NCBI GenBank assembly: GCA_937934745.1
Contig: CALGZC010000057.1
Coordinates: 1-34,845, forward strand
Direction: 5' to 3'
Source: an uncultured Blastocatellia bacterium
GTDB taxonomy: Bacteria > Acidobacteriota > Blastocatellia > Chloracidobacteriales > Chloracidobacteriaceae
Length of the DNA stretch: 34,845 nucleotides
A model generated the notes under the pieces. That model worked only from the letters and a program-made list of their open reading frames with translations, did no database searches and was not told the DNA's origin. Both the position numbers and the translations under genes were made by a program. Shown here one piece after another: positions 1 through 33,753 of the stretch. Positions within the stretch are counted from its first letter, which is position 1; each line of letters starts with the position of its first letter.

Positions 1-3000
1 CTGGTCAAACGTGTACGTCCGGTTGGTCACGCCGCCCGAGCCGCCGATGACATTGTTGAACAGCACGCAGAGCTGTCCGCCCGGACCGCGCAGCGCCACG
101 CCGACATCGTTGGGCCAGGTGTGGTTGAAGTTGTTGATGGTGACGGTGACTTTCGTGATCGAGCCGGTCAGGCCCGACACGGTGATCGGCGAGGGATATG
201 GCGTCGCCGTTCCTGACGCCGGAATCGTGATGGCGGCCGGATTGCTGAAGGTCGGCGGCGCGAAGATGCCGAGTTGGAATGTGTAGGGAATCGGCCCATA
301 CGTGTTCACGCCATCGGTCAGCGTTAGGTTGAGCGTGAGGATGCTGCCGCAGCTTGCCGTGACGGTAAAGCTGAAATCGGCCGTCCCCGTGGCGCCCGGC
401 GCCAGCGCGGGGACGCTCTGGCTGGCGGGCGTAATCCCCGTCGCGCCGCTGCTGGCGAGCGTGGCGGTCAGTGGCCCGCTCGCGCCCCCGCCGGCATTCT
501 CAACGACGAATCGCACCGTCGCCGTTTCGCCTGGGATGAGAATCCCGTTTGCCGGCGTGCAGCTTTCCGCCAGAATCATTGCGCCGCTGTTGACCAAGAC
601 CGGCACGCCCGCCGTGGTCGTGGCGTTGTAAATCACAAGCGCATAGTCCTGGTCGAGCGGGTCGGCATCGCCCGGCACGCCATCGCCCGCGATGTTGAAT
701 GCGCGCACCTGAATCGTCACCGGCGTGCCTGGCGTATAGGCGCCCGCCGGAATAAAGATGCTCTCGGCGTTGTTCAGGCGGTCAAAGCTGCCGCCCGTGA
801 TCGAGTTAGCGCCGGAAAAGTTGTTGCCGCGATAGACATCGGTTCCGGCCACGGCCTGGAGGTCCAGGTCGTTGACAAGGCGCGGGCCGCTGCCGGTCGT
901 CGCGCCGGGCACATCCGTCCAAGCCAGCGTGATGCGCAGCGGCCCTGACGCCGGGAACGCCACGGTCTGCACTCGCACCTGGCCTGACGCTGTAAATTTG
1001 TCCGCCGGAACCTGATCGCGCAGGACGCGCGGAGCGCTGTCAAACGCCCGGTCCAGCGCCATGCGTCCCATGCCCTGGTTGTTTGACCACAGCGTATCGC
1101 CAGCGCCCACGCCGGTCATGTACTGCGCGGAGTTCATCAGATAGGCCTTGGTCATAGCCGGGCTGGGAGCCGTGCCGTTGAAGGGCGGACCGGGATTGTT
1201 GAGGAAAAACTGCCGCGTGAGCGCCGCCCCGCCCGCGACCGCCGGACAGGCGAAGCTTGTCCCGGTGGAGGCGCGATAGTAGCCGGTCGTGCCCGCCAAC
1301 AGCGCGCTGGTCACGCACGGGTCGGCGCTGCCGGGACCCGTCGGGTCTGGCGTGCCGACCTGTAAGACGCCGCCGGAAACAGCCGTCGCCGGGGCGAGAA
1401 TCTCCGGCTTCCGCCGACCATCGGCGCAGGGGCCGCGACTGGAGGCGTTGTACATGTTCTCGGCGTTGGCATCGCTGCGCGTGTTCTGGCTGCCGCCAAC
1501 GGTGATCACATTCTTGCCCGTGCCGGGCGAGCCGACCGATCCGCTTGCTGGGCCACTGTTGCCGGCCGCAAACACGATGACCATTTCCTGGTTGCCGGGC
1601 GTCGGAAAGGCCGAGGCAGGACGCTGGCTGTCGCGCACGAGGAAGTCGTAAGCCTGCGCGTCCGTGTCGTACGCCCCGGCGACTGCTGCGCCCCAGCTAT
1701 TGGAGCTGATGCGCGCGCCATACTGGTAGGACCGCGCCAGCATGTCGTTGAAGTTCGGATTGGTGAAACCTCCGGTCACGCCGTTGTTGCCGAAAATCGC
1801 CGAGCTGCCGAGGCGGACAAACGGCGCTACGCCCAGGCCGTAGTAGAAATTCGGCGCGGCGCTCTCGGCATGCGGCAGCGCGCGCGACAACGACGCCGGC
1901 ACGTTGCCCCCGATGATGTGCGCGCAGAGCGTCCCGTGGCCGACCCGGCAGCCGCGCACATCCACCGCAAGCGGCGTCGGGAAGGTCGTGCTTTCCCATT
2001 TGGCATAGACCAGCCGGCTCGGCTGCGTGATGTCGCCGGCGCGGTAGAGGGCGAAGTGGCTCGTGTTGAGACCGCTGTTGGTGTGGTTGGGCGGCCCGCC
2101 CGGCGGCGCGGTCGTCGCGCCGGCCACCGTGTTGCCGATGTCCACCATTTCATCGCCGACATCCACGATGAAGTCCGAAGTGAAGGTCGAGTTGAGCGCC
2201 GGGAAGCCGGCCGCCGTCAAGAACGTGGCATAGGGCGTGGACAGGTTGGGAATCCCGGCCGTGAGGCTGTTGATGAGGATTTGATTCTGCCGCTCGTCGA
2301 GCAGCGTCGGCTCGACGTAGGGCATGATCGAAATCACGTCCTCCTGCGCGGCGAGCGTCGGCAGCGCGTCGGTCGGCAACTCGATGATGAAGTTGACGAA
2401 GTTGGCAATTTGGTAGCGCTGCACAGCGCGCGCGCCGGCGAATCGCTCCGCCAGGCTGATGGTCGCGTCGTTTTGCGCCGGGTCGGCTACGAGCTGAACG
2501 GCGTAGCGCGCCGTTCCCCGGGTCGGCGCGTCAGCCGTCGCCGGGTCGAGCTTAAACGCCCCCAGGTAGGGGCCGTCCCACTGCTTGAAACTGCCGCTGC
2601 CCGCCAGCATGTCCGCCGCCGGGTTGGCTTGTCCTTCGCCCAGGCGGGCGACGCGCTCGATGCTGGCCGCGTCGCCATAGACGAGATAGGCGTTATGCGG
2701 CAGATAGTTGACCAGCTCAACGCCGGCGCGGAGCAGCGCGTCGAGCCACTCGCGCCGCGTCGGGCCGACAAACTGGACGACGTGCAGATGCTTGCCGCTG
2801 CCGCTCAGCCGTTGCCGCGATAGCTCCTGCGCGCCGCTGGACGCGGTGTTGATAGGAATGTTCAGATGGACAATGTTGAAATCAAGCGCCAGCTCGACGC
2901 CGTCGAGCTTGGCGAAGGGCGACAGGTCGCTCCGGCTGGCGCGATACACTTGATATGAACCGTAGTCGGCAACCAATGTCGCCCCCAAGCGCTCGACTTC

Positions 3001-3239
3001 CGCCCGAGCGCCTTTTGTACGGGTAATGAGCTTGTGGTGCTGAATATCAGCTGAAAAGTCATAGGGAACGGCTGGGCGGAAGCGCTGGCCCTTGCCGTTC
3101 TCGGCCGGAGGAGCGCTGCTGACCCGGCCAGCGGCAATGCCGTCAGGCCGAACAGCGCCGTGATGGCGACGAATCCGGCCAGCCACGGCGCCCGCCCGCG
3201 GCGATGCCTTAGCGGGGAAGCTTCTGAAGTCAAGGACAT
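1..3239 (-). CDS. Secreted S8 (subtilisin-like) serine protease, 3' end outside window, frameshift after signal peptide
   Basis: The frame whose codons begin at 3120 is open without a stop down to base 1. It encodes a long propeptide-like region, then a subtilisin domain. Catalytic Asp is in FIVDVGDE (2161-2163), His in GHGTLCAHIIGG (1936-1938), oxyanion Asn in FAAGNSGP (1558-1560) and Ser in GTSFACP (1255-1257). After the protease comes a beta-rich domain resembling the proprotein-convertase P-domain, cut by the window edge. The signal peptide (WLAGFVAITALFGLTALPLAG) lies in a different frame, starting at ATG 3239. An AAGGAG ribosome-binding site (3247-3252) stands 7 bases before it. The two frames would join by adding one base near 3120. 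The only other start in the mature frame is a GTG at 3186, which has no ribosome-binding site and would leave no signal peptide. The protein is inferred to be exported and proteolytic. Confidence is high for the family and moderate for the integrity of the gene. Confidence 0.88.
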
Positions 3240-3246
3240 AGTCACT

Positions 3247-3252
3247 CTCCTT
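3247..3252 (-). promoter_or_regulatory. Ribosome-binding site AAGGAG of the S8 protease
   Basis: AAGGAG on the minus strand lies 7 bases before ATG 3239. It supports starting the protease in the signal-peptide frame rather than in the frame of the mature enzyme, which is why a frameshift is inferred. Confidence 0.6.
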
Positions 3253-3488
3253 AGTGAAAGGTTAGAAGGTTAGGGGATGAAGCGCTTTCCGCTCTCGAAT
3301 GCGAGCCTTGAATGCGAGCGATGGAGACGACCGGAAACCCGGCTGTCCGTCAACCGACGCGAGGCTGGATGACAAGCGGGCGACGCGATCTCAAGTCGGA
3401 AAGGTTAACTTTTTTCTTCAGCATTGCTACTGAAACAAAGCTTTGCCTTTTGGGCAACGGATTGGGCTGAAAATCCAGAAGCGTGAAA

Positions 3489-3538
3489 GGCGCCGGCCAC
3501 GCCGCGGCTGGCGCCTCCCACGCTGCAGCGGGGGAGGC
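3489..3538. other. Two abutting GC-rich hairpins
   Basis: Hairpin 1 pairs GGCGCCGGCC (3489-3498) with GGCTGGCGCC (3506-3515), with one mismatch and a 7-base loop. Hairpin 2 pairs GCCTCCC (3513-3519) with GGGAGGC (3532-3538) around a 12-base loop. They share three bases, so they may be alternatives. No T-run follows on either strand, so an intrinsic terminator is not supported. Confidence 0.45.
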
Positions 3539-3540
3539 CT

Positions 3541-3574
3541 CGTCCGCGAAAGGCAAGCGTCCGCGAAAGGCAAG
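3541..3574. repeat. Perfect tandem repeat, 2 x 17 bp
   Basis: CGTCCGCGAAAGGCAAG occurs at 3541-3557 and again, identical, at 3558-3574, directly after the hairpin pair and about 90 bases before the lptD start. It could be a binding site or a simple replication-slippage duplication. Confidence 0.85.
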
Positions 3575-3662
3575 CTTCGCTCTTCAAAGTTTGCGCCGCT
3601 TCAAATAGAGTCGTGGCGCTGCCGCCTGCGCGACTGACGCTCCGACCTTCGCTGCGCACTGA

Positions 3663-6209
3663 ATGACCTTGCTTCGCACCGCTCGCTGGATTTGTCTGCT
3701 CTGGCTAAGCTGCATCTCTCACGCGACCGCCCAGTATATTCCACCGCTGCCGCCCCTCCCTCCGTCGGAGCCGCGCGCGGCAGTGGTCGTGGTCGGCCCG
3801 CCGGGCGCGCCTTCCGCGCCGCAGGCGCTGCCGCTGCCTGCGCCGCCGCCGACCCAGGCAGCGCCAGACCAAATGCCGCCCGGCGGCGGCGTGCAGATTG
3901 ACGCCGAGGAACAGCGTCGCGTCGGCGACACGCTCTACGCTGAAGGCTATGTGGTCATCGTGTACGACGGCGCGCGCCTTCAAGCTGACCGCGTTGTTTA
4001 TGACGAAAAAAGCGGGGGCGCCCGCGCCGAGGGCAATGTCATTTACGATCCGCAGCCGAACCAGCGCCTGACGGCCCGCCGCGCGGAAGTGGACATTCGC
4101 CGCAAGACCGGCGTGTTTTATGACGTGATGGGCTACACCGACCAGACGGCCGATGGCGGCTTGCTGGAGTTCACGGCGGCGCGGGTTGAGCGCGTGACGC
4201 GCGACACCTACATCCTCTACGAAGCCAAGCTCACCTCCTGCTGCGAGGACGCCGTGCCGCTCTGGACGGTGACGGCCCGCCAGGCGCGCATCCGCGTCAA
4301 CGACTACGCCTCGGCGCGCAATGCGGCCTTTCGCGTCAAAGGCGTGCCCATTGTGCCGCTGCCCTACATCACGCTGCCGATTGACCGGCGCGAGCGCAAA
4401 TCCGGCTTCCTGCTGCCGACCTTTGGCAACAATACCCTGCAGGGGCGGGTGCTCGGCATTGGGTATTACCAAACCCTGGGCGATAGCGCCGACCTCACCC
4501 TCCAGGGCGACATCTACAGCGCGCGGGGGCTTGGCTTTGGCGCGACGCTGCGCGTGGCGCTGGCGGAAGACTCGTTTATTCGGCTTGGCTCCTACAGCGT
4601 CGCCGACCGGCTGTTCGGGCGGCCGGGCGTCAACCAGGGCGGCACGCTCTTTTTCGCCAAGGCTATCAACCGCTTCGCCAACGGCTTTGTCGCGGCCGCC
4701 GATGTGAACTACACATCCAGCTTCGACTTTCGGGCTATTTTCGGCAACACCATCGAGGATGCCTTCAATCCCGAATCGAAAATCGTCATCCATCTGACGA
4801 AGCAAACGCCGAAGCTTAGCTTCCGGGCGCTCTATGAAAACCGGACGACGCGGGTCAGCATCCCGCAGGGCGAGCGCGGCGCGACGCTGGTCGAGTTCTC
4901 GATTCGCAAAAGCCCGTCGCTGAACTTTGACTGGGCGACAACCCGACTTGGGCGTTTTGCCGGGGTGACGTGGTATGCCGGCGGCGAAACCAGTCTGGCC
5001 GGCTTGCGCCGGACGGAAGCCCGAACCGACCCGAATCGGTCAACCTTCGCCACGCCGGAGTTTGTGCAGCGTCTCGATGCCGCGCCGCGCCTGACGGCGC
5101 TGCTGCCCGATTTTGGCGGATGGAGCGTGACGCCGACGCTGGGCGTCCGGGCGACCTACTACGGCGCGACCTTCGACCCGGAAACGACCCTGACGCCGCG
5201 TCCGCCCCTGTCCTTCGGGCTGCCGCCGCCGCCGACCGCCCTGCCCGGCGGCGCGCGCCTGGGGACGTCCGGCGCCTCCCTCTTTCGGCGCTTCGTGGAT
5301 TTCGCGCTTGAAATCCGACCGCCGGCCCTGGGGCGGACGTTTCACGCCAAGGACGGATCGCCGCGCTTCAAGCACATCATCGAGTCGGCGGTCATCTACC
5401 GGCGCGTCGCCGGCATTGACGACTTTCCGCGCCTGCTGCGCTTCGATGCGCTGGATATCTTTGCTAACACGAATGAGCTGGAATACGCCGTCATCAACCG
5501 CCTGCTCGCGCCGGTTCGCGACGAGACCGGCCAAACCCGCCAGGCCCGCGAGATTCTCAGCCTGACCGTCAGCCAGAAGCATTTTTTTGACCCGACCTTT
5601 GGCGGCGCGCTCACGCCGGGACAGCGCAACCAGATCGCGCCGCTGCTGACCTTCAGCGGCTTCGCCTATGGCGGCATCGGGCGGCGCTTTTCGCCGCTCA
5701 ACGTCAAGCTGCGGCTGACGCCGCAACAGTCGTTCGCGGCGGACGCGCGCATTGACTTCGACCCCTCCCTGGGCGGCGCGCGGAGCTTTGGCTTGACCGG
5801 CGGCCTTTACCGGCGCCGCTTTCAGCTCAGTCAAACCTGGTACTACAGCCAGCCCCGCCGCCTGGCCGACGGTCAACCCGAGCCTGGCGTCTTCACCGGC
5901 AGTCAGTCCTTCACGAATCTGGCGGCGGGCGATCCGGCGCGGGGCCTCTTCGGCAGCGCCGCCATTGCCTATGACTTCTCGCGCTCGCCTAGCCCGACCA
6001 CCGGTCGCCTTCAGAGAAAAGGGTTGATCTTTACTTCATTTTCGCTCGGCTACGCCTTTCGGTGCGCGGCCGTGCAAGTCAACTACGCCAGCGTCAACCT
6101 GGGCGTCGCCAGCGCCGGCCGGCTGACCTTCACGGTCGCGCTGCGCGGGCTGGGCACCTTTGGCACACAGCAAGATCAGGCTTCGGGCAACCGCATCCGC
6201 AACTTGTGA
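3663..6209 (+). CDS. lptD: LPS-assembly outer-membrane protein LptD
   Basis: 848 residues. LptD is the outer-membrane barrel that places lipopolysaccharide in the outer leaflet, acting with LptE. A signal peptide (about residues 1-23, ending at THATAQ-like SHATAQ) is followed by an unusual proline/alanine-rich linker (about 24-75). Next comes an OstA/LptA-like jelly-roll (about 78-190; GDTLYAEGYVVIVYDGARLQADRV), then the LptD barrel (PLPYITLPIDRRERKSGFLL; YSARGLGFGATLR). A vicinal Cys pair sits at LTSCCEDAVP near residue 190, and one further Cys lies near the C-terminus (YAFRCAAVQ). This recalls the inter-domain disulfides of LptD, although the Proteobacterial enzyme uses four cysteines. Start is the ATG at 3663; its ribosome-binding site is weak. 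The gene stands alone, 145 bases before a kinase gene. Confidence in family is high. Confidence 0.9.
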   Translation: MTLLRTARWICLLWLSCISHATAQYIPPLPPLPPSEPRAAVVVVGPPGAPSAPQALPLPAPPPTQAAPDQMPPGGGVQIDAEEQRRVGDTLYAEGYVVIVYDGARLQADRVVYDEKSGGARAEGNVIYDPQPNQRLTARRAEVDIRRKTGVFYDVMGYTDQTADGGLLEFTAARVERVTRDTYILYEAKLTSCCEDAVPLWTVTARQARIRVNDYASARNAAFRVKGVPIVPLPYITLPIDRRERKSGFLLPTFGNNTLQGRVLGIGYYQTLGDSADLTLQGDIYSARGLGFGATLRVALAEDSFIRLGSYSVADRLFGRPGVNQGGTLFFAKAINRFANGFVAAADVNYTSSFDFRAIFGNTIEDAFNPESKIVIHLTKQTPKLSFRALYENRTTRVSIPQGERGATLVEFSIRKSPSLNFDWATTRLGRFAGVTWYAGGETSLAGLRRTEARTDPNRSTFATPEFVQRLDAAPRLTALLPDFGGWSVTPTLGVRATYYGATFDPETTLTPRPPLSFGLPPPPTALPGGARLGTSGASLFRRFVDFALEIRPPALGRTFHAKDGSPRFKHIIESAVIYRRVAGIDDFPRLLRFDALDIFANTNELEYAVINRLLAPVRDETGQTRQAREILSLTVSQKHFFDPTFGGALTPGQRNQIAPLLTFSGFAYGGIGRRFSPLNVKLRLTPQQSFAADARIDFDPSLGGARSFGLTGGLYRRRFQLSQTWYYSQPRRLADGQPEPGVFTGSQSFTNLAAGDPARGLFGSAAIAYDFSRSPSPTTGRLQRKGLIFTSFSLGYAFRCAAVQVNYASVNLGVASAGRLTFTVALRGLGTFGTQQDQASGNRIRNL

Positions 6210-13324: not shown

Positions 13325-15034
13325 TCACCGTTTGGGTTCGGCCGGCTGCTTGTCCACTGCCTCGTTCAGAATCTGTCCAACAGCTCCGTTTGGGGCGGCA
13401 ACGCCTAACAGAAAAGCCAGCGTCGGTGCAATGTCCGAGGGACTCGCCGGGGAGGAATACACACCGGGGCGGATGCCGGCTCCCATGAGCAGCACCGGAA
13501 CATGCGTGTCATACGCATAGGGGGTACCGTGCGTCGTAGCAGCGGTGTACTCCTCGTCGCTGAAAAAACAAAACGGCTCTGGAACCAGAAACACATCCCC
13601 ACTACGCTGCGGGTGAAAGGCCATCTGCACGCGCTGGGCGATGGGTGTTCGCGGTAGCGCGCCGGACAGCATCTGGGTTCGGGTCAACGCCGCCGCCACA
13701 CCGGGGACCGTCAGGGCGGCCTCTGCTGCCACCTGCTCAACGTCGGCGCGATGGAGCTTTTTTCCGGTCAAGGTGCTCAAGTCAAAGTACACCGACTCGG
13801 CTGAGAAACCTGCAAACCACTGACTTTCGCCAAACTTGGCGTCCAGGGCGCGCTTGATGGCTACGGCAACCTGCTCGAAAGGGATTCGGCGGCTGTTGAG
13901 TCGCTGCCGCGCCGCATACTCCGGCACGGGCGCCACGCCATGGTCAGATGTCAGGAAAAGCAGCGTTTTGTCCAAACCAACCTGCCGGTCCAGCAGGTCA
14001 AGTAAACGCGCCAGGGCCTGGTCGGTCTGCACGGTCATGTCGAGTACTTCGTGGCTGTTGGGTCCGAAGGCATGGCCGACCAGGTCATTCGCCGAAAAAC
14101 TGATGGTGAGCAGATCGGGCACCGTATCTGCACCGAGCTTTTCGTGCTCGATGGCAGCAGCCGCAAACTCCACCAGAAAGTCATTCGCCCAGGGGGTCAT
14201 TGTGAATTCGTTATAGAAGCGGGCATTGGGTTTGTCGCCGCGCCCGACCAGGTGCGGGAAGGCCGTGCCGCCACCGGTAAACCGCCCTTCGTAGGACACA
14301 TCGTCAGCATCGCAGCGGGTGTAGGTGTCTTCCGGCAAGGTCTTTTCCCACGCCTTACCAAACCATCGGTCAGGGAGCCGCCGGGCGTTGAACGCTGTCA
14401 CCCAGTCGGGCAACGCTGTCATGTAGTACGTACTGGTTTGCATTTGCCCCCGTTTGCTGTCAAACCAGTACGCAGCATCGGCGGCGCGTCCGGCCGGCAA
14501 AATGGCGGCGCGGTTCTTGAGTGAAATGCCGATGACTTTGGCTTGTCCGCCGGTCGCGGCTTTCAGTTCATCACCTAACGTCGAGACCAGCAACCGGTGA
14601 GGTGAAGCGCCTTTGCCTTCCGGCACGCCGGTTGTCGTGTCATCTGTGATACTTTCAATCACCTTGCCGGCTTCGCGGTCATACCACTTGTTTCCGATGA
14701 TGCCCGTGACGGCGGCCGTCGAGCCGGTCGTGACGACGGCGTGTCCCGGTGCGGTGTACGTGCAGGCGTGCAGGTAATGGGCATTGGCAAAGTACGCGCC
14801 GTTGACTCTCAGCCGTTGGAAGCCTTTTTCGCCGAAGAGGTCTGCAAACCGCTCCAGATAGTCGGAGCGAAGCTGGTCAATGATGATGCCAACTACCAAG
14901 CGGTAGTTGTGACGCGGCGTGGGAGGCGTGGAAACAGCGCAGGCAGTTTGTTGTGGATGCCCGACACAGAGCAGCACAACAGCCGCCGACATCAGGCAAG
15001 CAGCGGCTCGGATTCGATGGTCAAGGAAACGCAT
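13325..15034 (-). CDS. PafA-like alkaline phosphatase family protein, exported
   Basis: 569 residues from ATG 15034 with GAGG 7 bases upstream. A signal peptide (AAACLMSAAVVLLCVG) indicates export. The alkaline phosphatase superfamily core is visible: metal-binding Asp in VVGIIIDQLRSD (D53), likely Thr nucleophile in CTYTAPGHA (T94), Asn in IIGNKWYDR, the PafA-type Lys/Arg pair in GISLKNRAAILPAGR, then FSANDLVGHAFGP and FLTSDHGVAP supplying further zinc ligands. It is inferred to be a calcium- or phosphate-independent type periplasmic phosphomonoesterase that scavenges phosphate; substrate range cannot be told from sequence. It precedes the amidase on the same strand with a 219-base gap, so the two may be transcribed separately. 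Confidence 0.9.
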   Translation of the reverse strand: MRFLDHRIRAAACLMSAAVVLLCVGHPQQTACAVSTPPTPRHNYRLVVGIIIDQLRSDYLERFADLFGEKGFQRLRVNGAYFANAHYLHACTYTAPGHAVVTTGSTAAVTGIIGNKWYDREAGKVIESITDDTTTGVPEGKGASPHRLLVSTLGDELKAATGGQAKVIGISLKNRAAILPAGRAADAAYWFDSKRGQMQTSTYYMTALPDWVTAFNARRLPDRWFGKAWEKTLPEDTYTRCDADDVSYEGRFTGGGTAFPHLVGRGDKPNARFYNEFTMTPWANDFLVEFAAAAIEHEKLGADTVPDLLTISFSANDLVGHAFGPNSHEVLDMTVQTDQALARLLDLLDRQVGLDKTLLFLTSDHGVAPVPEYAARQRLNSRRIPFEQVAVAIKRALDAKFGESQWFAGFSAESVYFDLSTLTGKKLHRADVEQVAAEAALTVPGVAAALTRTQMLSGALPRTPIAQRVQMAFHPQRSGDVFLVPEPFCFFSDEEYTAATTHGTPYAYDTHVPVLLMGAGIRPGVYSSPASPSDIAPTLAFLLGVAAPNGAVGQILNEAVDKQPAEPKR

Positions 15035-15331: not shown

Positions 15332-17917
15332 ATGAGCGCAACCGTCACCGCAACCCCGGTCACACGGCAAGAGATTGTCAATCGGCATGCCATTCTGGAA
15401 GCCATCCGGGGCATTTCTGCGATTGAGGAACTGGCCGAGCTTGAACCAAACCACGGATATAAGTTCGGTGTGGACCTGGAAGTGGCCATTTATGGGCGCA
15501 ACTACGGCCCGGGCAAGAAAGTGGGGCCTTACATTCGGATGTATGACTACCCGCCGGGTGTCGAGATCGTGCGCCAGGGCGATTGGAACACCAACACCTT
15601 CTACATCGTCGTCGCCGGCGCGGCAGAAGTCTTCGTGGCGGGCATTCCAGAACCGGTGGCAATCTTCGAGGCAGGCAAGCCGTTTGGGGAAATGGGCGTC
15701 CTGGCCGGCACACCGCGCAGCGCAACGGTCATCGCCCACCGTCAGCGTGGCATCCGTGTCCTCGAAGTGCAGCGCCCCGCACTACGTATCCTACGCAAGC
15801 TCAAGCGGTTTGGCGCGGCGCTCGACATTACCTACCGCAACAACAGCCGCGCCTCTACCATCACGCAACTTCAGATTCCAGATGACCTGCGGAAAAGCCT
15901 TGCCGACATTGCTGACTTTCAACTGGTGGCGCGGGGACATGTCCTGACCAGCACGGCAGAGCCTATTCGGAAACTCATCCTGATTCGTGATGGGTGGGTC
16001 AAGCGCATCAGCCAGACGCAGACCGGAGAGCGCACGGACTATCTCGGCCCCGGCTACATTCTAGGCTTCAACGCGTTGACGGTTCGTGAGGCGCGCTTTC
16101 CCTATCGGACCGTTGCCATGAGCCGAACCGAAATACTCGAAATCCCAGTCGAGGCTCTTTACCGCGATCCACACCTTTTAGAGCGTTTCAAAGCTGCCTT
16201 GGGCGAAGCCGGTGAGATTGGCACCCCCCTGCAACCTGTCCGGCAGCGCACGTTTAACCCGGCGGTCAAAGCCGCACAGGAACGGTTACTGAACAAAGGC
16301 TTTGCCGACGCAAACAACCTCCTGCTGATGGACATGGACTTGTGCATCCGCTGTGGGAACTGTTCCCTGGCTTGCCACCGAATACACGGGCGGTCGCGGC
16401 TGAAACGAACAGGTATTCATGTGTTGCGTCCCAAAACACCTGCCCACACCAAGCTGAACCAGTCATTGCTGATGCCGGCAGTGTGCCTGCACTGCAAGGA
16501 TCCGGAGTGCCTGACGGGCTGTCCGACCGGAGCCATTGCGCGCTTCGAGGGCGGGCAAGTGGACATTCTCCCCAACCTGTGCATTGGATGCAGCGATTGC
16601 GCAACGCAGTGTCCCTACAACGCGATTTCGCTCATTCCGCGCAGCGAACTCAAACAATCCCCGTCCAAGCTGCCAACCGGGGCGGCGCGATCTCACAACG
16701 GCAAGGGTCCGGGTAAAAGCAAGGAGACGGCGCAGGAAGCCGAGCCGTTTGACCCCTTTGCAGCGTTCGGGCTGCGCTTTGACCCAAAGCCCAACCCGGT
16801 GACGCAGGACGAGGATCTGGTCGCCATCAAGTGCAACCTGTGCAACGACACGCCGCTCAACCCCAAGGATGCGACCGGCAAGCCGGCTTACGCCACGCAC
16901 AAGTACAACTGCGAGGAAAACTGCCCGACCGGCGCGCTCAGGCGCGTCAAGCCCCACGAATACTTCAACGAAATTGCCCAGATTCACGGCCCAGCCTTCC
17001 GCCAGCCGGAAACCCTGATCGTCGGTAACCGCTTTGGCCATGCTGACCGGGCAAAGCTGCTGGCGCATGCGGTCGGCATCGGGCTGACGCTCGCGCTCTG
17101 CGGCGGGACAATGGCCGGCATTGTCCAATATGGGCTGGGCACGCCGCTCTTGAAATCGGATTGGTTCAACTTCCGGTGGATCACCGGGCTGGTCGGCCTG
17201 GCGGGCATCATCATCGTGATGCTCTATCCCGTCCGGCGGCAAATGTGGCGGCGGCGCAGCGGAGCACTCAAGCTCTGGATGCTGGCGCATGCCTACGCGG
17301 GTGTCATCGCCGGCGTCGTGTTGTTGCTCCACGGTGGGACGAGCCTTGGCGGGCCCGTCACGGCGGCCCTCATGATTTCGTTCGACCTGGTGATTTTGAC
17401 CGGCCTCATCGGCATCTTGCTGTACCAGCTCGGGCCGCCCCTGCTGACCACCATCGAGGGCGAGCCGCTGCTGGCGGAAGACTTGGCGCACCGGCGCGAC
17501 GAGCTGTATCAAGAAATTGCCGACCTGACCGTGACGGCGCAGGAACAAGCCGAGAAAGAAGGGCGGGGGGCGCAGTTTCAGCAGGCTTTCCTCCCGGCAC
17601 GCGACCGCGTCATGCGCGCCGTTTTTTCGCTGAGTTTCCTGTTGCGTCAATACATCCGCCGCGAGAGTCTCGACGACCTCCTCGCCGATGCCCGTAAGCG
17701 TTTTGCCAACGCCGTCAACCAGCAGTCCGACGCCACCGATCAGGAGGTCATGCGGCAAATTATCGAGGCGGTTGCCACGATTCGGCGCATTGATGCTTTA
17801 CTTTACATCCACCGGGCGCTCAAAACCTGGCTTCCACCCCATGTGATTTCAACCTCGGTGATGCTTGCCCTGCTGGTCGTACACATCGTTCAAGTCGTGT
17901 ACTACCTCTGGCGGTAG
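15332..17917 (+). CDS. Fusion protein: tandem cNMP-binding-like domains, Fe-S ferredoxin module, b-type cytochrome-like membrane domain
   Basis: 861 residues; ATG 15332 follows GGAAGGG by about 8 bases. Domain order: CNB-like 1 (about 60-155; MYDYPPGVEIVRQGDWNT, FGEMGVLAGTPRSATV), CNB-like 2 (about 185-300; FQLVARGHVLTS), then a ferredoxin region (337-535). This has CIRCGNCSLACH, CLHCKDPECLTGCPTGAI, CIGCSDCATQCPYNAI and a last CNLC...CEENCPTGAL, enough cysteines for about four [4Fe-4S] clusters. Helices follow at about 570-592, 612-633, 650-669, 674-700 and 838-860, with a charged helical stretch before the last. His653/His667 and His837/His851 are each 14 apart in helices, the spacing of bis-His haem b ligands in cytochrome b. 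It is inferred to pass electrons between Fe-S centres and membrane haems under control of a bound small ligand. The next gene, 58 bases on, is a matching partner. Specific function is unknown. Confidence 0.82.
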   Translation: MSATVTATPVTRQEIVNRHAILEAIRGISAIEELAELEPNHGYKFGVDLEVAIYGRNYGPGKKVGPYIRMYDYPPGVEIVRQGDWNTNTFYIVVAGAAEVFVAGIPEPVAIFEAGKPFGEMGVLAGTPRSATVIAHRQRGIRVLEVQRPALRILRKLKRFGAALDITYRNNSRASTITQLQIPDDLRKSLADIADFQLVARGHVLTSTAEPIRKLILIRDGWVKRISQTQTGERTDYLGPGYILGFNALTVREARFPYRTVAMSRTEILEIPVEALYRDPHLLERFKAALGEAGEIGTPLQPVRQRTFNPAVKAAQERLLNKGFADANNLLLMDMDLCIRCGNCSLACHRIHGRSRLKRTGIHVLRPKTPAHTKLNQSLLMPAVCLHCKDPECLTGCPTGAIARFEGGQVDILPNLCIGCSDCATQCPYNAISLIPRSELKQSPSKLPTGAARSHNGKGPGKSKETAQEAEPFDPFAAFGLRFDPKPNPVTQDEDLVAIKCNLCNDTPLNPKDATGKPAYATHKYNCEENCPTGALRRVKPHEYFNEIAQIHGPAFRQPETLIVGNRFGHADRAKLLAHAVGIGLTLALCGGTMAGIVQYGLGTPLLKSDWFNFRWITGLVGLAGIIIVMLYPVRRQMWRRRSGALKLWMLAHAYAGVIAGVVLLLHGGTSLGGPVTAALMISFDLVILTGLIGILLYQLGPPLLTTIEGEPLLAEDLAHRRDELYQEIADLTVTAQEQAEKEGRGAQFQQAFLPARDRVMRAVFSLSFLLRQYIRRESLDDLLADARKRFANAVNQQSDATDQEVMRQIIEAVATIRRIDALLYIHRALKTWLPPHVISTSVMLALLVVHIVQVVYYLWR

Positions 17918-17975
17918 CCCCCTATCGCCCCCGTGATGCTTCACAACAACCTGCGCCCCCGGCTCACAAGACGCC

Positions 17976-20900
17976 ATGGCGAAACTCAGCCGCTTCAGAA
18001 TTCAGCGCAAAGACTTCATAGACAAGGGCGATCTGACTCTTGAACTTGAGGGACTGGTCATCGGATCGCAGCCCGACTGCGACTTGTGGCTCAATCACCC
18101 AACCGTGTCACGCCTTCATGCTGGCATTCGGGAAGTGGATGGTCACTGGTGGCTGACAAACCTCTCCAGTACGAACGGCACACAGGTCAACGGCGCGCTG
18201 ATTGAGACGGTTGAGCTTCAGCCCGAAGATGTGATCCGCATTGGCGTTTTTGTCCTGCGCCCGTCTTTCACCGAGGGCGCAATCATGCTTGACGTGGACC
18301 GCCAAGTGGATGCCTACGCAGCGTCCGAGTGCAGCACACGCCTGTTGGGCGACCCCATCCAGGCAACTGCCCAGGGCAAAACCGCGCTGCTGCCCAAGCT
18401 GACCGGGTATTTGCAGCAACGCGGGATGACCCAGCCCCTGCGCGGTCAAACCCAGCAGCTGGCCGACATGCCGCCCGCCGCGGACGCCCCGGAAGCGCCA
18501 TCGCCGCCGCCGAGCGCCACCGGTCTGCTGCACGCCGCTCGCCTGCAACGCGGCATGACCGGCCTGTTGACCTCGATTTTGTCGCTGCCGGAGTCGGAAC
18601 AGAAGCGCTTCCAGCAGGCGATGAGCGTCTTCTGGGAGCGACGCAAGGCGGCCATCAAAGGCGAGCAGAAGCTCGACGAGCAATCGCCACTCGAACCCCG
18701 CGAGCTGCCTGAGGAACTCAAAAGGCACAACCTGCACCTCGGCAAAAAGCGCTTTAACTGGACGCCGACCGACGACCTGATTCGCCCGTGGCCGCGCGGG
18801 TATCTCTATGTTTTCGGGGCGCTGACGACCATCCTGTGCGCCATCGCCTTTTTTGCCTGGGAAGCGGCCTATGTGCCGGGCGACACATCGAACCCGCATG
18901 CCCTGCCGGCCGCGAAGCTACCCGCGCCGATTCAGGAGCGCCTTAGCCTTAAACTCGTGGCAAATGCACCCGTCGAGAATCAGTGCAGCGCCTGCCATGC
19001 GGCAACGACTTCCATGCAGAACAAGTGCGTGGACTGCCACGAGACCAATCACTTCAACACAACGGTCATCGCCAAGCATGAGGAGGCCAAAATCCAGTGC
19101 GTGGATTGCCACACCGAGCACAAGGGCGCGGATTTTCGCCCCGGACTCGTGTCGCGCAGCATGTGCATTGACTGTCACCGCGACGGGCCGACCCATCCCA
19201 AGGCTGTGAGCTTGAAAGACGGCTCGCCTCTGCGCGAGCCACACCGCGGCTCGTTTGGCTATCCGGTCGAAAACGGCGTCTGGTCGTGGCAACGCCCGAT
19301 GAATCCGAAGTGGGCCAAGCTCTTTTCGGAAAGCCGGACCCCGCTCGACCCGTCCGCGCAATTCCACCTGGTGCACGCGGCGGTCGCGCCTGCCGCGAGC
19401 GCCTGGAAGTGCAGCGAGTGCCACGCCGGCGCCTTTGCCCAGGGCGCGTCCGAGGTCAAAGTCATCAACCGCGACAAGTGCGCCGTTTGTCATGGGCAGG
19501 CCTATGTTCAGACTGCCTCACTCAGAGAACTTGACACCGATGCCCTGCGGCTTGGCATTGACTGCAATTCCTGCCATCAGCAACACCCCCAGTCGCAGAC
19601 GCTGGCAGCCCTCCGCCGTCCGGCAGGGAGCAGCCCTGAGCCTGTGATTTTCACCAAAGATGGCGTCTATCGCGGCGGCAAGGACTGGCAGTGGACCAGC
19701 CTGGCGGCCAAGTTCGGCGGCTTCACCATCGGCCACTGGGCGCTTTTTCTCAGTCTCATTCCGCTGACGGGGATTGGCTTTCTCACGTTTGACACGCTGC
19801 GCAAGCGCCGCGAGCAGGCGGCTCTCAAAGGGCAGGCACTCGATCTGGCCAACCGGCACCGCAAGTTTACCGACACGCGCTACGCCGAGCGGTGGGAGTC
19901 CGCGACCCAAGTCGAACGTGCGCGGGTCTCGGCGCGGGAAAATCCCATGCCGCACCCGGTCATCAACTACGAGACGTGCATTGGCTGTCATGCGTGCATT
20001 CTGGCCTGTCCGCAGGACGTGCTGGGCTTTGACGACCAGGAACACCACGCCATTGTCGTTAATCTCGAACAGTGTGTAGAGGACACAAGTTGTCAACAGG
20101 CGTGCCCAACGGTGCCGCAGTCGTGTGTACTCATTAACACACGCCAAACTATCCGCGAGGCGCCCAAGCCGCTGCGCAAAGGGGCAGCCGATGGGTTTGA
20201 GGCCGAAGGTGTGCCGGGTATCTACCTTGTCGGCGATGTGTCGGGCGTGCCGCTCATTCGCAACGCCATCAAGGAGGGCCGCCTCGCCATCGAGCGCATG
20301 GCCGAAAAGCTCCGGGCAGAAGGCGCGCCGGCAAACGCCGACTACTACGATGTTGCGATCATTGGGATCGGTCCGGGCGGCATTGCCGCCGTCGCCCGCG
20401 CGGCGGAGCTGGGCCTGCGCTATGTGGCACTCGAGCAGGGACGCCGATACTCGACCATCGCCGAGAAGTATCCGGCCGGCAAGTATGTCGCCTTCAATCC
20501 CTTCAACCCGGCCGACCCGCCGCTCGGCGCAATTCGCCTCGACGGCCCCGGCGACCTGAAGGAGACGATGCTGGCGTGGTGGGATGAAACGGTCGAGAAG
20601 CTCGGTCTGGTCATCAACGAGTATGAGGGCTGCAAGGAAATCGCCCGCGAAGGCGATGGCTTCCTTGTCAAAACGACGAAGAACCCCGCGGGCTACCGGG
20701 CGCGCAAAGTCTTGCTGGCGATTGGCAACGCCGGCGAGCCGCGCAAGCTGGGCTGTCCCGGCGAGACGGAAGGGCGCGTCCTGTATCGCCTCCAGGACCC
20801 AAGCGCTTTCAAGGGCAAGCGCATCATCGTCGTCGGCGCGGGCAATTCCGCGGTCGAGGCCGCGGTTGACCTCGCCGGACAGCGGCAGCCCGATGGCACG

Positions 20901-21212
20901 GTCACGTTCCCGCCCGACGCGGAAGCCAACCAAGTCACGCTGGTCATTCGCTCGGACTTCCCGAAAGACCTGACGCTCGAAAACAAGATGTGGGTCTACT
21001 ACTGCCTGGACGCCGGGCGGATTCAGGCGTATTTCGGGGCGAGTGTCCGGGAAATCACCGGCACAGAAGTCATTCTTGAGGACGTGCGCGACAAGCGCGA
21101 AATTGCCCGCCTTCCAAACGACTATGTGTTCGCCTTGATCGGCAGTATGGCGCCAAAAGAGTTTTTGACCAAGTTGGGTATTCAGTATGCCGGCAGGGAC
21201 GGCCGGCAGTGA
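17976..21212 (+). CDS. Fusion protein: FHA, seven-haem cytochrome c, ferredoxin, FAD/NAD(P)H oxidoreductase
   Basis: 1078 residues. An FHA domain (about 20-100; VSRLHAGIREVDG, NLSSTNGTQVNG) has the phosphothreonine-binding Ser/Arg/His/Asn pattern. A Pro/Gln-rich linker precedes a helix (about 275-297; YVFGALTTILCAIAFFAW). Seven CxxCH haem motifs lie at about 337-533 (CSACH, CVDCH twice, CIDCH, CSECH, CAVCH, CNSCH), so this segment should be periplasmic. A second helix (about 583-605) returns the chain to the cytoplasm. A ferredoxin domain follows (668-720; CIGCHACILACPQ, then CVEDTSCQQACP), and then a flavoprotein. That part has GIYLVGDVSGVPLI (about 748) before VAIIGIGPGGIAAVARA (about 793-809) and VVGAGNSAVEAAVDLA (about 950-965). 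It is inferred to move electrons between NAD(P)H/FAD and extracytoplasmic c-haems through Fe-S. It is likely co-transcribed with the preceding gene. Confidence 0.85.
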   Translation: MAKLSRFRIQRKDFIDKGDLTLELEGLVIGSQPDCDLWLNHPTVSRLHAGIREVDGHWWLTNLSSTNGTQVNGALIETVELQPEDVIRIGVFVLRPSFTEGAIMLDVDRQVDAYAASECSTRLLGDPIQATAQGKTALLPKLTGYLQQRGMTQPLRGQTQQLADMPPAADAPEAPSPPPSATGLLHAARLQRGMTGLLTSILSLPESEQKRFQQAMSVFWERRKAAIKGEQKLDEQSPLEPRELPEELKRHNLHLGKKRFNWTPTDDLIRPWPRGYLYVFGALTTILCAIAFFAWEAAYVPGDTSNPHALPAAKLPAPIQERLSLKLVANAPVENQCSACHAATTSMQNKCVDCHETNHFNTTVIAKHEEAKIQCVDCHTEHKGADFRPGLVSRSMCIDCHRDGPTHPKAVSLKDGSPLREPHRGSFGYPVENGVWSWQRPMNPKWAKLFSESRTPLDPSAQFHLVHAAVAPAASAWKCSECHAGAFAQGASEVKVINRDKCAVCHGQAYVQTASLRELDTDALRLGIDCNSCHQQHPQSQTLAALRRPAGSSPEPVIFTKDGVYRGGKDWQWTSLAAKFGGFTIGHWALFLSLIPLTGIGFLTFDTLRKRREQAALKGQALDLANRHRKFTDTRYAERWESATQVERARVSARENPMPHPVINYETCIGCHACILACPQDVLGFDDQEHHAIVVNLEQCVEDTSCQQACPTVPQSCVLINTRQTIREAPKPLRKGAADGFEAEGVPGIYLVGDVSGVPLIRNAIKEGRLAIERMAEKLRAEGAPANADYYDVAIIGIGPGGIAAVARAAELGLRYVALEQGRRYSTIAEKYPAGKYVAFNPFNPADPPLGAIRLDGPGDLKETMLAWWDETVEKLGLVINEYEGCKEIAREGDGFLVKTTKNPAGYRARKVLLAIGNAGEPRKLGCPGETEGRVLYRLQDPSAFKGKRIIVVGAGNSAVEAAVDLAGQRQPDGTVTFPPDAEANQVTLVIRSDFPKDLTLENKMWVYYCLDAGRIQAYFGASVREITGTEVILEDVRDKREIARLPNDYVFALIGSMAPKEFLTKLGIQYAGRDGRQ

Positions 21213-27761: not shown

Positions 27762-27779
27762 CTTTGGGCACTCGTCTTG

Positions 27780-27785
27780 AGGAGG
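27780..27785 (+). promoter_or_regulatory. AGGAGG ribosome-binding site deciding a GTG start
   Basis: A consensus AGGAGG ends 8 bases before GTG 27794. This places the start of the DUF4178-like gene 10 codons downstream of the earliest in-frame start at 27764. Confidence 0.75.
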
Positions 27786-27793
27786 TAATCAGC

Positions 27794-28345
27794 GTGGGCT
27801 GGTTTTCATTTTTGGGGAAGAAAACGGCGTCGCCTAAACGCCGAACGCGGCCGCTGACCGACCTTAGTGCCGGCGATACCATCTTTCTTACGGAGGCAAG
27901 TCCACTTCCGGGCAAGTGGATTATTGACAAAGCACATCGCTTTGTGGACATCGAGCGCCAAACGGTGGCTTTTTGGCAGTTTGAGGTCACAGATGGCGAG
28001 CAGCGGCGCTTTGTCGAGGTTCACCTACCGCACGCCCAGACGACGACCGGTCGTGCCGTGGCCTCGTTTCCACTCGATCCGACGGAGTACGGTGAGGTTG
28101 AAGCCCTGGAACTGGACCCTGAAGAACCACCGGCGCAGTTGACCTGGCGCGGACGTGATTACCGGCTGGTCGCTGCCCGCAACCTGCGCTTCTACCGTAA
28201 CACCGGCGAACACCCACGCGATATGCTGCACCTGGAGTACGCGGACGAAGACGGACGGCAGACACTGACCTTTGAGTTCTGGTCACGGCACGGCACACCG
28301 GTGACATCCGAAGGCATTTGCCTCGAACCTGAAGAAATTGAATAG
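27794..28345 (+). CDS. DUF4178-like protein of unknown function
   Basis: 183 residues from GTG 27794. The N-terminus is short and basic (GWFSFLGKKTASPKRRTR), then two beta-rich halves follow: LSAGDTIFLTEASPLPGKWIIDKA...FWQFEV and LTWRGRDYRLVAARNLRFYR...LHLEYADEDGRQTLTFEFW. A closing strand reads GICLEPEEIE. The pattern of a 'GD' turn, an aromatic-rich strand and a terminal acidic 'EIE' resembles DUF4178 proteins, but this is a tentative match. No signal peptide or membrane helix is seen, so it is probably cytoplasmic. It follows the CheY-like gene by 32 bases in the same direction. Confidence 0.6.
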   Translation: MGWFSFLGKKTASPKRRTRPLTDLSAGDTIFLTEASPLPGKWIIDKAHRFVDIERQTVAFWQFEVTDGEQRRFVEVHLPHAQTTTGRAVASFPLDPTEYGEVEALELDPEEPPAQLTWRGRDYRLVAARNLRFYRNTGEHPRDMLHLEYADEDGRQTLTFEFWSRHGTPVTSEGICLEPEEIE

Positions 28346-29282: not shown

Positions 29283-30074
29283 ATGTTTCGGCGGTTTCTG
29301 CACGCACTGTTCATCACGACGACGGTTGGCGTTGGACTCCTGCTGGTATTCGCCGTCACTGCCTGGCTGAACAGTTGGCAAGTGCCTGCACTCACGCCCA
29401 GTTTGGCACTGGATATTGGGATGGGTGTGGTGTGCTTCATCTGGTTGCTGCTCATTCTCACTGTGCCCTGGGACTTGCATTTCCAAGCGAAAGCCGTCCA
29501 GTTTGAGTTAGAGCGGTCGCAAGCAGTCGGGATCAGAGTCAATCCCGACCGGTTAGCGTATGTGCAGCGGACGCAACGCACAACGTTGTGGGTTGCGCTG
29601 GGCTTACACTGCTTTTCGGCAGCCGTGATCGGCGGACTGGCTTATCTAACCGAGGGCAACATTGGGTACTGGTTCGCTGGGTTCTACCTCGCCACGATGG
29701 TTTTTCGACCCATTGGTGCGGCGTATGAGTACTTACACCGCAAACTCCTGGACATCGGCGAGGAAGCGAAATTTCCTCGCGACGACACCGTGAAGCTCAA
29801 AAACGATCTTGAGCAAACCAAAGCTGAGCTGGCGGAACTCAAACGACAGGTCGAAAACATCGCCAAGCAACTGACAGCCCTGGAAGCCGCCGCCAGCAAA
29901 ACGCATCAGGAACTGCGAGACCTACACCAGGCCATCGAGCGGGCGGAACAATCTTTCAAGAGCCGGATCGGTCAAATGAGCGACGAGATCGAGCGGTCAC
30001 TGACACGCACCTTCGACCAGCAGGACCTTGTCAATGGGCTGCGGGCGTTTGCACGGCTCGTCAAGTCTGCCTAG
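29283..30074 (+). CDS. Membrane protein with C-terminal coiled coil, function unknown
   Basis: 263 residues. Four hydrophobic segments are visible (about 8-30, 42-63, 101-122, 128-145). A soluble, strongly helical heptad-like tail (about 160-245; NDLEQTKAELAELKRQVENI) resembles a coiled coil with Lys/Glu periodicity. No family was recognised. Both ends of the chain should be cytoplasmic if there are four helices, so the coil would project inward and could tether a partner or multimerise the protein. The gene is convergent with a roadblock-protein gene (35-base gap). Start ATG 29283 has a weak GAGAG upstream. Confidence 0.72.
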   Translation: MFRRFLHALFITTTVGVGLLLVFAVTAWLNSWQVPALTPSLALDIGMGVVCFIWLLLILTVPWDLHFQAKAVQFELERSQAVGIRVNPDRLAYVQRTQRTTLWVALGLHCFSAAVIGGLAYLTEGNIGYWFAGFYLATMVFRPIGAAYEYLHRKLLDIGEEAKFPRDDTVKLKNDLEQTKAELAELKRQVENIAKQLTALEAAASKTHQELRDLHQAIERAEQSFKSRIGQMSDEIERSLTRTFDQQDLVNGLRAFARLVKSA

Positions 30075-32610: not shown

Positions 32611-33753
32611 TCAGTGGCGTCGGTGAGGTCGGCGGTGATCCTTGACCGGATGCATCCGGGCAGTATCGCCCTGATAGCGCAGTAGGACGACCGTTTGCGG
32701 TAATTTGGCTTGCAGGGTGATGACACTCGCCAGTGAGCTGTTGTCGCGCGCCCAATCGGTGGTCGAGAACTCCTCACCTTCCGACCAGCTTACACGCTGA
32801 AAGCCAAACTGAAGGTACGACTCGCGCAAATGCTCATTGTAGAACCGGTAAACCTGCTCCTGAGGATGCGTCGTGGACAGGACAAACAAGCCTGAGTGCT
32901 TCCGCATATCACTAGCGGCGGCAATCACGGCGGCCGCCGGATAGAGCACTACCCAGGGTGGCAGGCGCCAATCGTCTATCAGTGACGGCTGGGAGACGCC
33001 GTCGGCACGCTTCATAAGTATCTGGAAATCAAGCGTCACATTTGCCAGGCTACGCCGGTGCGTAAAATGAATGGCTTTCAAATAGGGGCGTGGCGTGAAA
33101 AAATTATCCCCGCCGTTGACTTCACACTCAAAACGCATCGGCTGAAAATCAACATCGGTTAGCGCCGCCACCTCGTTCATCGGTTCAAGGTAAGACGATG
33201 TCCAAGCCATCCCGCGTTTGTATGCCACCTCAATTGTGGTGCGGGGCGGTAGCGCGGATGACGTGCGCAATGCGGATGAACGAATCGCCAGGCGAATCTG
33301 TTCGTTGGATGCCCCGGTCAACCAAAGCTCTCCGTAGCCCGGCGCATAAGCGATGAAGGTGCGGGTAAATTGCGTACCGTTGACCTTTTCTGCGTAGGCA
33401 AGTTGGTAAAAGTCAAACACGACTTTTGTGGAGTCATTGGTTGTCAGTGTTAAAGAGCCGCTTTCCTGAAGTTCACCTATGTGAAGAAGCTGCCCTTCAA
33501 CGGTTGCATGGGGGTACGGTATAACCCAACCTGGGAGCTTGACAGTCTCTGCTGTGGATGCCTGGGTGCAGGTCTCCAGCCGTTCGGCCGACCGATGTGT
33601 ACAGGGAGCTGCATTGGCAGCGACAATCAAGTGCCAATCACAGCAGTCAGGCAGCGGCACCGGGCACAGAAACCAACCTCCAACAGCCAGCCCAAGCAGA
33701 AGGTGTCTGACTTCACAGGCACAGACGAACGGCGTTAGCCTGAAAACAAACAT
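32611..33753 (-). CDS. Secreted protein with two copies of an unassigned domain
   Basis: 380 residues. The N-terminus has a hydrophobic stretch (LLLGLAVGGWFLCPVPLPDC) that could be a signal peptide, possibly with a lipobox-like Cys. Two related blocks follow. In the first (about 73-160), LPGWVIPYPHATVEG is followed by SGSLTLTTNDSTKVVFDFYQ. In the second (about 265-360), LPPWVVLYPAAAVIAA is followed by SGLFVLSTTHPQEQVYRFYN. Both pair a 'LPxWVxxYP' opening with a 'S/T-x-D/H..V..FY' helix, so the protein likely arose by duplication. Between them is a divergent beta-rich middle. The C-terminus is His/Arg-rich (HPVKDHRRPHRRH). No known family assigned. It converges with bioA (64-base gap). Confidence 0.72.
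   Translation of the reverse strand: MFVFRLTPFVCACEVRHLLLGLAVGGWFLCPVPLPDCCDWHLIVAANAAPCTHRSAERLETCTQASTAETVKLPGWVIPYPHATVEGQLLHIGELQESGSLTLTTNDSTKVVFDFYQLAYAEKVNGTQFTRTFIAYAPGYGELWLTGASNEQIRLAIRSSALRTSSALPPRTTIEVAYKRGMAWTSSYLEPMNEVAALTDVDFQPMRFECEVNGGDNFFTPRPYLKAIHFTHRRSLANVTLDFQILMKRADGVSQPSLIDDWRLPPWVVLYPAAAVIAAASDMRKHSGLFVLSTTHPQEQVYRFYNEHLRESYLQFGFQRVSWSEGEEFSTTDWARDNSSLASVITLQAKLPQTVVLLRYQGDTARMHPVKDHRRPHRRH

Follow-up and report, generated by a model that had tools for sequence, protein, structure and literature searches.

Two helices, each contributing two histidines, hold the two b-haems of NADPH oxidases (NOX), and YpdA/Bdr disulfide reductases carry an active cysteine. To our knowledge, DsrMKJOP, Hmc, Tmc and Qrc contain no flavin or NAD(P)H modules and no CNB or FHA domains, and we know of no trans-envelope electron conduit with a second-messenger domain. 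The conduits that have been described are fed from the quinol pool, at least in the excerpted text of PMC7096707. Here we analyse contig CALGZC010000057.1 (34,845 nucleotides, hereafter the window), one of the contigs of a 3.29 Mb genome of an uncultured Blastocatellia bacterium (GCA_937934745.1). It carries two adjacent genes, A and B, which together probably encode a conduit that takes electrons from NAD(P)H across the cell envelope and is controlled by a cyclic nucleotide.

Gene A (15332-17917, 861 aa) and gene B (17976-21212, 1078 aa) lie on the forward (+) strand, as do all their features given below, and both reading frames are intact. The 58 bases between them, like the remaining coordinates, are exactly as a sequence-only reading of this DNA had given them. 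From its open reading frame (ORF), Pfam matches, motif counts and homologues, A is a CNB-CNB-4x[4Fe-4S]-di-haem cytochrome b protein; its Pfam matches are cNMP_binding over two stretches (79.4 bits, cut-off 27.5) and several Fer4 models. The ferredoxin-like module (16343-16924; Pfam/NCBIfam and cysteine sets) has 16 cysteines for four [4Fe-4S] clusters and is DsrO/HybA/NrfC-like, scoring 67.1 bits on the DsrO equivalog model (cut-off 200). The membrane part (17069-17899) matched no Pfam family. It has five hydrophobic helices, with H-X13-H on the third (H653/H667) and fifth (H837/H851), and these four predicted haem ligands are invariant in 24/24 aligned sequences. H-X13-H on two helices is the pattern of two stacked b-haems, and this histidine pattern predicts that the domain is a di-haem cytochrome b. 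The sequence-only reading was right about the two CNB-like domains, the four clusters and the multi-helix membrane part, and overlooked the cytochrome b.

This cytochrome b forms one family across three phyla: hhalign gave 97.2-98.5% for the homologues from Sphingobium and Emticicia and for three variants described below, against 0.15-1.8% for four controls. In a ten-row alignment three of the four histidines are invariant, the fourth being absent only from a shortened row. The cytochrome b561-type model PF01292 found no match in A at E 0.1 (the Sphingobium homologue scores 22.1 bits, cut-off 30.1), the NADPH oxidase/ferric reductase model PF01794 found none in A at E 0.1 or in P0009 and P0012 at E 1, and no NrfD-type membrane subunit was matched by Pfam in A or B. 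Searching PDB sequences with the cytochrome b of Emticicia, the decahaem protein and the barrel returned nothing useful.

ORF, Pfam and motif counts define B as FHA-transmembrane (TM)-7 c-haems-TM-ferredoxin-permuted FAD/NAD(P)H. Pfam finds FHA (64.3 bits, cut-off 20.7), Fer4_10, Cytochrom_c3_2 and Pyr_redox_3 (98.2, cut-off 30), which together with the motif counts confirms the FHA domain, seven c-haems between two helices, ferredoxin and FAD/NAD(P)H domain described before. The seven CXXCH motifs (18984-19577), predicted to be periplasmic, lie between the hydrophobic, transmembrane helices at 18804-18860 and 19743-19799; an eighth match, at Cys668, belongs to a ferredoxin motif. The dicluster ferredoxin (19953-20126; Pfam and motifs) has CxxDxxCxxxCP as its second motif, with D703 and C717 kept in 15/15 aligned rows that hold the domain. 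The YpdA/thioredoxin-reductase-like FAD and NAD(P)H Rossmann domains (20346-21194) carry the motifs GIGPGG and GAGNSA.

The strand that ends other members of this flavin family (GIYLVGDVSG...) instead precedes the first Rossmann motif in B. It is encoded at 20214-20294 (GIYLVGDVSGVPLIRNAIKEG; residues 747-773), ahead of the GxGxxG at 797. Residues 747-773 align with 298-324 of the Sphingobium protein, in which the order is canonical, and residues 803-1075 with its 1-282. Putting the B domain into canonical order extended Pyr_redox_2 coverage to 1-291 of 291 (89.5 bits), compared with 1-251 (86.0 bits) unaltered and 1-253 (76.5 bits) with the segment shuffled; Pyr_redox_3 did not discriminate (102.8, 103.3 and 103.5 bits). 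Judged by this order of segments, B has a circularly permuted FAD domain, which the sequence-only reading had overlooked. The same permutation occurs in Emticicia and, by inspection, in one Pseudoalteromonas protein. In the latter, on plasmid pPBSW1 (L066:5920-8274; L and G numbers are our labels for regions and genomes), the permuted flavodomain is put to another use, being joined to a membrane protein that has polyferredoxin domains of the Fer4_5 type.

By hand count, the FHA-haem gene lies directly downstream of A in 37 of the 38 A loci of 34 genomes, a count that takes strong A matches only and sets four weaker variant genomes aside; at two of the 38, only part of A is on B's contig, since the contig ends there. 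In the sole unlinked locus (G012), A runs into a contig end. Homologues are hence linked as a rule, rather than routinely separate, the outcome that would have spoken against the pair. Both genes are present in 20/20 fetched regions, with the Fer4/FAD part either fused to B or in a separate gene close by; in three of these regions (L074, L079, L081) no such part was found in the vicinity. None of the 24 aligned homologues, a set that includes the window, has lost any of A's 16 cysteines or B's seven haem motifs, so the architecture is neither chance nor mis-assembly, and orthologues in six other genomes of the genus also rule out an artefact. B matches two Chloracidobacterium metagenome-assembled genomes (MAGs) at 88 and 93% identity and Blastocatellia bacterium records at 53-59%. 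At E 1e-40, A was found in 17/297 sampled genomes of the phylum, all within the window's class.

A mobile-element origin was also considered; it suits the copies in Sphingobium and Emticicia, which are on plasmids, but does not fit the window, in which A-B is surrounded by RpoD, GcvPB and LptD-like genes and by a putative RdgB-like gene. Two genomes that belong to a single genus and have a split B carry a PIG-L de-N-acetylase gene (L078:6316-7284, L084:9713-10669) between the FHA-haem gene and the Fer4-FAD gene; we judged the PIG-L and AAA genes found between split B genes to be lineage-specific. In genome G007, FHA-GAF-SpoIIE and TPR-GGDEF genes (L069:644-2770 and 2859-5126) stand directly upstream of the operon's second copy.

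The same core recurs in other lineages. An operon on plasmid pMSHV of Sphingobium herbicidovorans (B6S01_RS18455-18440, known to us through its annotation) encodes an FAD-CNB-CNB-FeS protein (825 aa as annotated), a cytochrome b (296 aa), an FHA-like multihaem c protein (599 aa) and a phosphodiesterase-like protein. The FAD, CNB-CNB-FeS, cytochrome b and FHA-like multihaem c parts are shared with A-B, whereas the domains are split over three genes, the FAD domain is in canonical order, and identity is 27% over about half of A; the FHA-like domain scores 17.6, short of the 20.7 that Pfam requires. Beside this operon are genes for decahaem-LVIVD, HbpS-like and barrel-like proteins. A predicted protein of more than 2000 aa (L106:35128-41200) is encoded next to the decahaem, barrel-like, HbpS-like and c554-like genes of pMSHV. 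Plasmid pEMTOL02 of Emticicia carries a cytochrome b, a Fer4-permuted FAD protein and two multihaem cytochromes, of which one (1001 aa, L065:11101-14106) has 40 CXXCH motifs; CcsA, Rieske and beta-barrel genes are nearby. Four genomes of the window's class have a three-gene variant of CNB-FeS, cytochrome b and ten-haem c genes; in L096 the last of these runs into a contig end and retains six motifs. The variant of G046 has a NuoG-like N-terminus, and a NuoEF fusion lies upstream of it. Three interchangeable NAD(P)H inputs are thus found on one core, namely permuted FAD, canonical FAD (Sphingobium) and NuoEF (plus the NuoG-like domain), and this swapping argues more strongly than anything else for NAD(P)H as the donor. 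Together with the conserved cofactor sites, these relatives uphold the earlier proposal of a path from NAD(P)H and ferredoxin to the periplasm.

Where electrons would go beyond the c-haems of B is suggested by neighbouring genes. Three multihaem genes (4, 8-9 and 9 motifs) adjoin A-B in 7/20 regions (L073, L074, L077, L079, L080, L082, L086). A decahaem/LVIVD protein with 45-51% identity to the neighbour of the Sphingobium operon is encoded, in part or for the most part, in L073, L077, L080, L082 and L093, and HbpS-like proteins (39-42% identical) in L073, L074, L085 and L086. With the Sphingobium decahaem protein as query, 39 of 58 class genomes were positive, and an A or B system is present in the very same genomes (A at E 1e-20 in 38, B only in G044, presence being entered by hand); the same 19 genomes lack both. 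In G044 a 3359-base contig ends just upstream of B. None of 20000 label shuffles within families (0/20000) reached the observed co-occurrence, and three genera are split for the system (g13, g21, g22), so the pattern does not reflect one inheritance event.

A barrel-like gene, assigned by eye from an N-terminal hydrophobic stretch and a C-terminal aromatic residue, stands beside the decahaem gene in 8/8 fetched regions, including the window's own genome (G000:C5, L114), and in 10/10 regions fetched later. The Sphingobium barrel (P0017) had no Pfam match, and the OmcA/MtrC model gave 27.2 bits for one neighbouring cytochrome (cut-off 209.3). The barrel and the decahaem protein may both sit at the outer membrane. 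Across the phylum sample, the decahaem protein occurs in 33/297 genomes, its best piece being 46-59% identical to that of Sphingobium; such high identity across phyla is a hint that its role is catalytic and not passive.

Fifteen of these 33 genomes come from other classes and have no A match at E 1e-40, and we wrote down beforehand the prediction that they should hold a divergent cytochrome b. It was found in 14/15, compared with 4/20 controls, ten of which (G064, G066-G074) were counted as decahaem-negative from not being among the matching genomes. We fetched ten of the 14 positive loci, choosing those in which the two genes are near each other on a single contig, and in 10/10 of these regions the CNB-FeS, cytochrome b, ten-haem c, barrel-like, decahaem/LVIVD (9 or 10 motifs) and c554-like genes occur together. 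The NAD(P)H input is NuoEF in two, a Sphingobium-like FAD domain in six and neither in two.

A role for cyclic nucleotides is suggested by the first of the two sensor domains in A. CNB domain 1 (15548-15787) has a complete phosphate-binding cassette (FGEMGVLAGTPRSAT; E120, R129), while that of CNB domain 2 (15926-16162) is degenerate. The cassette Glu and Arg of CNB1, which we take to be the ligand-binding positions, are conserved in 23/24 and 22/24 aligned sequences, respectively. Since CNB1 has the complete cassette and CNB2 has none, one site could plausibly bind a cyclic nucleotide. CNB domains are present in all 35 acidobacterial regions fetched around the system, and the window genome has three CNB places besides gene A. 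In the FHA domain of B (18057-18245), S45, R46, H48 and N67 are kept and the phosphothreonine-contact Arg, presumably the Arg of the G-R motif (Rad53 Arg70 type), is replaced by Ser31. Because of this replacement, classical phosphothreonine reading is doubtful in the window protein, though other lineages could plausibly use it. The FHA domain probably serves for docking and, in the window lineage, may do so independently of phosphorylation. Ser/Thr kinase domains occur at 35 places in the window genome, 32 of them over the cut-off.

Enzymes of cyclic-nucleotide turnover are found nearby. Class III cyclases occur in 23/23 genomes searched, every one of which carries the system, at 45 places in all. 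One lies within 10 kb of A-B or the decahaem gene in 6/23 genomes (expected 0.45) and, in a first test, within 5 kb of A-B alone in 3/23 (expected 0.16). The cyclases neighbouring the system in L077, L082 and L094 have FHA, GAF and cyclase domains. In L094 (G046, 78% complete), the only cyclase found in the genome comes after the operon and a metallo-beta-lactamase-fold gene that matches class-II cAMP phosphodiesterase (2.3e-12). The next gene in the Sphingobium operon is closest to SpdA and CpdA, both under cut-off, and is annotated as cpdA in a sister plasmid; two operons (L094 and Sphingobium) thus carry phosphodiesterase-like genes. Directly beside the FHA-GAF-cyclase and redox operon of L077 is a gene for an MscS-type channel with a C-terminal CNB domain (L077:13582-15012), a possible second receiver of the cyclic nucleotide.

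Building on the observed domains, conserved ligand residues, linkage and decahaem co-occurrence, we propose that A and B would form one inner-membrane oxidoreductase. NAD(P)H would reduce the permuted FAD domain of B, from which electrons would pass to the B ferredoxin and on to the four Fe-S clusters of A. The two stacked b-haems of A would then carry them across the membrane to the seven c-haems of B, and periplasmic multihaem cytochromes would hand them to the barrel and decahaem/LVIVD pair, which is encoded elsewhere in the window genome and beside the same core in other members. Binding of a cyclic nucleotide to CNB1, most likely cAMP from the FHA-GAF class III cyclase, would set the flow. 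The electron path is well supported; we infer the complex, its topology, the outward direction, the location of the barrel and the gating, and the case for phosphothreonine gating here is weak. The sequence-only reading fares well on the electron path and on its small-ligand input, which the CNB1 cassette and the nearby cyclase and phosphodiesterase-like genes favour, with gating itself still a proposal; it fares poorly on a kinase signal, given Ser31 at the contact position, and it did not foresee a reach beyond the periplasm. A bolder version likens the system to ion channels switched by cyclic nucleotides: a widespread, hitherto undescribed and cyclic-nucleotide-gated electron channel across the envelope, in which a CNB-equipped di-haem cytochrome b feeds electrons of NAD(P)H to a dedicated outer-membrane barrel and decahaem protein and is switched by cAMP from a linked FHA-GAF cyclase. 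We hold this version tentatively, leaning slightly against it.

Several observations weigh against a gated conduit of this kind. AlphaFold models of A and B were poor (mean pLDDT 50.2 and 35.5, from seven-sequence alignments). In the window's own genome, the decahaem/barrel pair and two nonahaem cytochromes are on contigs other than that of A-B, and these cytochromes (C28, which also carries an HbpS-like gene, and C43) are only 21-28% identical to the multihaem neighbours of A-B elsewhere. G270, the sole miss among the 15 predictions, has the decahaem protein without the cytochrome b, and four controls (G060, G062, G071, G073) have the cytochrome b without the decahaem protein. As to the cyclic nucleotide, the one class III cyclase of the window genome, with an FHA-like N-terminus (its FHA and GAF parts assigned by eye and by similarity to domain-scanned neighbours), is on a contig other than A-B's, and ribonuclease Z models score similarly on the phosphodiesterase-like gene of L094. 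The Poisson figures for cyclase proximity use hand-entered coordinates, distances set after seeing the data and related genomes. The pattern used found no complete CNB cassette in L141.

In the least improbable of the alternatives, still an unlikely one, the same conduit is ungated, NAD(P)H feeds the cytochromes constitutively, and the CNB and FHA domains are structural or serve docking. It would account for the lack of a cassette in CNB2 in 24/24 aligned sequences and for the loss of the FHA Arg in 10/24 (Arg in 14, Ser in 9 and Ala in 1), as well as for the four Emticicia core proteins scanned, in which neither CNB nor FHA was matched, so a sensor is not essential to the electron path. It sits less easily with the conservation of the CNB1 Glu and Arg, the complete cassettes in 9/10 of the distant operons fetched, and the cyclase or phosphodiesterase-like genes nearby in two phyla. 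We likewise think it unlikely, and marginally more so, that electrons flow in reverse, from an extracellular or periplasmic donor through the decahaem/barrel pair, with the b-haems driving NAD(P)+ reduction. Nothing in the sequence fixes the direction, and FAD, Fe-S and NuoEF modules are reversible; by general potentials, however, electrons would run downhill when passing from NAD(P)H to c-type haems. Chloracidobacterium, the window's genus, is phototrophic according to an excerpt of PMC11788075, which would suit reverse flow.

Two further explanations are less likely still. The system could be a redox sensor rather than a respiratory enzyme, in which the state of the haems and Fe-S clusters is passed to the CNB and FHA domains as output; sensor-type domains are indeed fused to redox domains here, and FHA recurs in the cyclase, but it would be costly for a sensor to carry a complete NAD(P)H module and to be inherited together with a decahaem/barrel pair, and we consider this quite improbable. 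Most improbable of all is a thiol or cytochrome-maturation reductase, whose flavin domain would reduce a disulfide or supply reductant for haem attachment. YpdA (TIGR04018) is the best-scoring NCBIfam flavin model for B, and the PIG-L class, seen between the split B genes of L078 and L084, includes thiol-biosynthesis enzymes. However, the score of 118.6 bits is below the 339.9-bit cut-off, the domain order is non-canonical, the GIGPGGIAA motif lacks a Cys, and there is no CXXC in the domain; PIG-L is found in only 2/20 regions, both of one genus, and such a role would not need a decahaem partner. An NAD(P)H-fed conduit under cyclic-nucleotide control remains the reading that we favour.

The window also contains a PafA-like alkaline phosphatase gene (13325-15034; 531.7 bits, below the 650 cut-off), divergent from gene A. 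Three of its ORFs (27764-28345, 29283-30074 and 32611-33753), in a part that also encodes a response regulator, an acyltransferase and a class III aminotransferase, had no Pfam match at E 1e-5.

We found no description of this domain composition in the open-access literature, as judged by titles and abstract openings. In a survey of Acidobacteriota MAGs, every MAG is reported to encode large multihaem proteins, for most of which the substrates are unknown (PMC8100337), and a term search of the main text of a survey of outer-membrane multihaem cytochromes found neither Acidobacteri nor Sphingo (PMC11475568). The family described here is found in 39/58 sampled genomes of the class, in at least 14 further sampled Acidobacteriota and in Sphingobium, with NAD(P)H as the likely direct donor. 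It offers a gene set for testing outward electron movement in poorly understood Acidobacteriota, and ties a decahaem/LVIVD family of unknown role to A-B-type systems. Whether a second messenger can throttle a cytochrome wire also becomes directly testable by experiment.

Compared with known systems, A-B shares with the MtrCAB/Pcc porin-cytochrome conduits (fed by CymA, ImcH or CbcL) a predicted entry at the inner membrane, predicted periplasmic multihaem c-type cytochromes and a barrel-like gene adjacent to a decahaem gene. It differs in that the entry would run from NAD(P)H through flavin and Fe-S via a di-haem cytochrome b rather than a quinol dehydrogenase, in its built-in sensor domains, and in falling outside the MtrB/MtrC sequence families. 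NOX and ferric reductases (PF01794) pass electrons from NAD(P)H and FAD to two b-haems, as A-B would, whereas A-B has a YpdA/TrxR-like flavin domain, an Fe-S chain in between and c-haems as acceptor. With DsrMKJOP, Hmc, Tmc and Qrc it has in common a DsrO/HybA-like four-cluster ferredoxin and cytochrome c3-type haems, but no match to their NrfD-type membrane family. The bacillithiol disulfide reductase YpdA (Bdr; PDB 7a76) has the same FAD/NADPH fold (2.8e-20 over B residues 793-1077), while the B domain is circularly permuted, lacks the active Cys and is fused to a ferredoxin. By sequence tests, A-B belongs to none of the b561, ferric reductase, DsrMKJOP and YpdA families. By analogy, it would work like a porin-cytochrome conduit fed by NAD(P)H, with an inner-membrane step like that of an NADPH oxidase.

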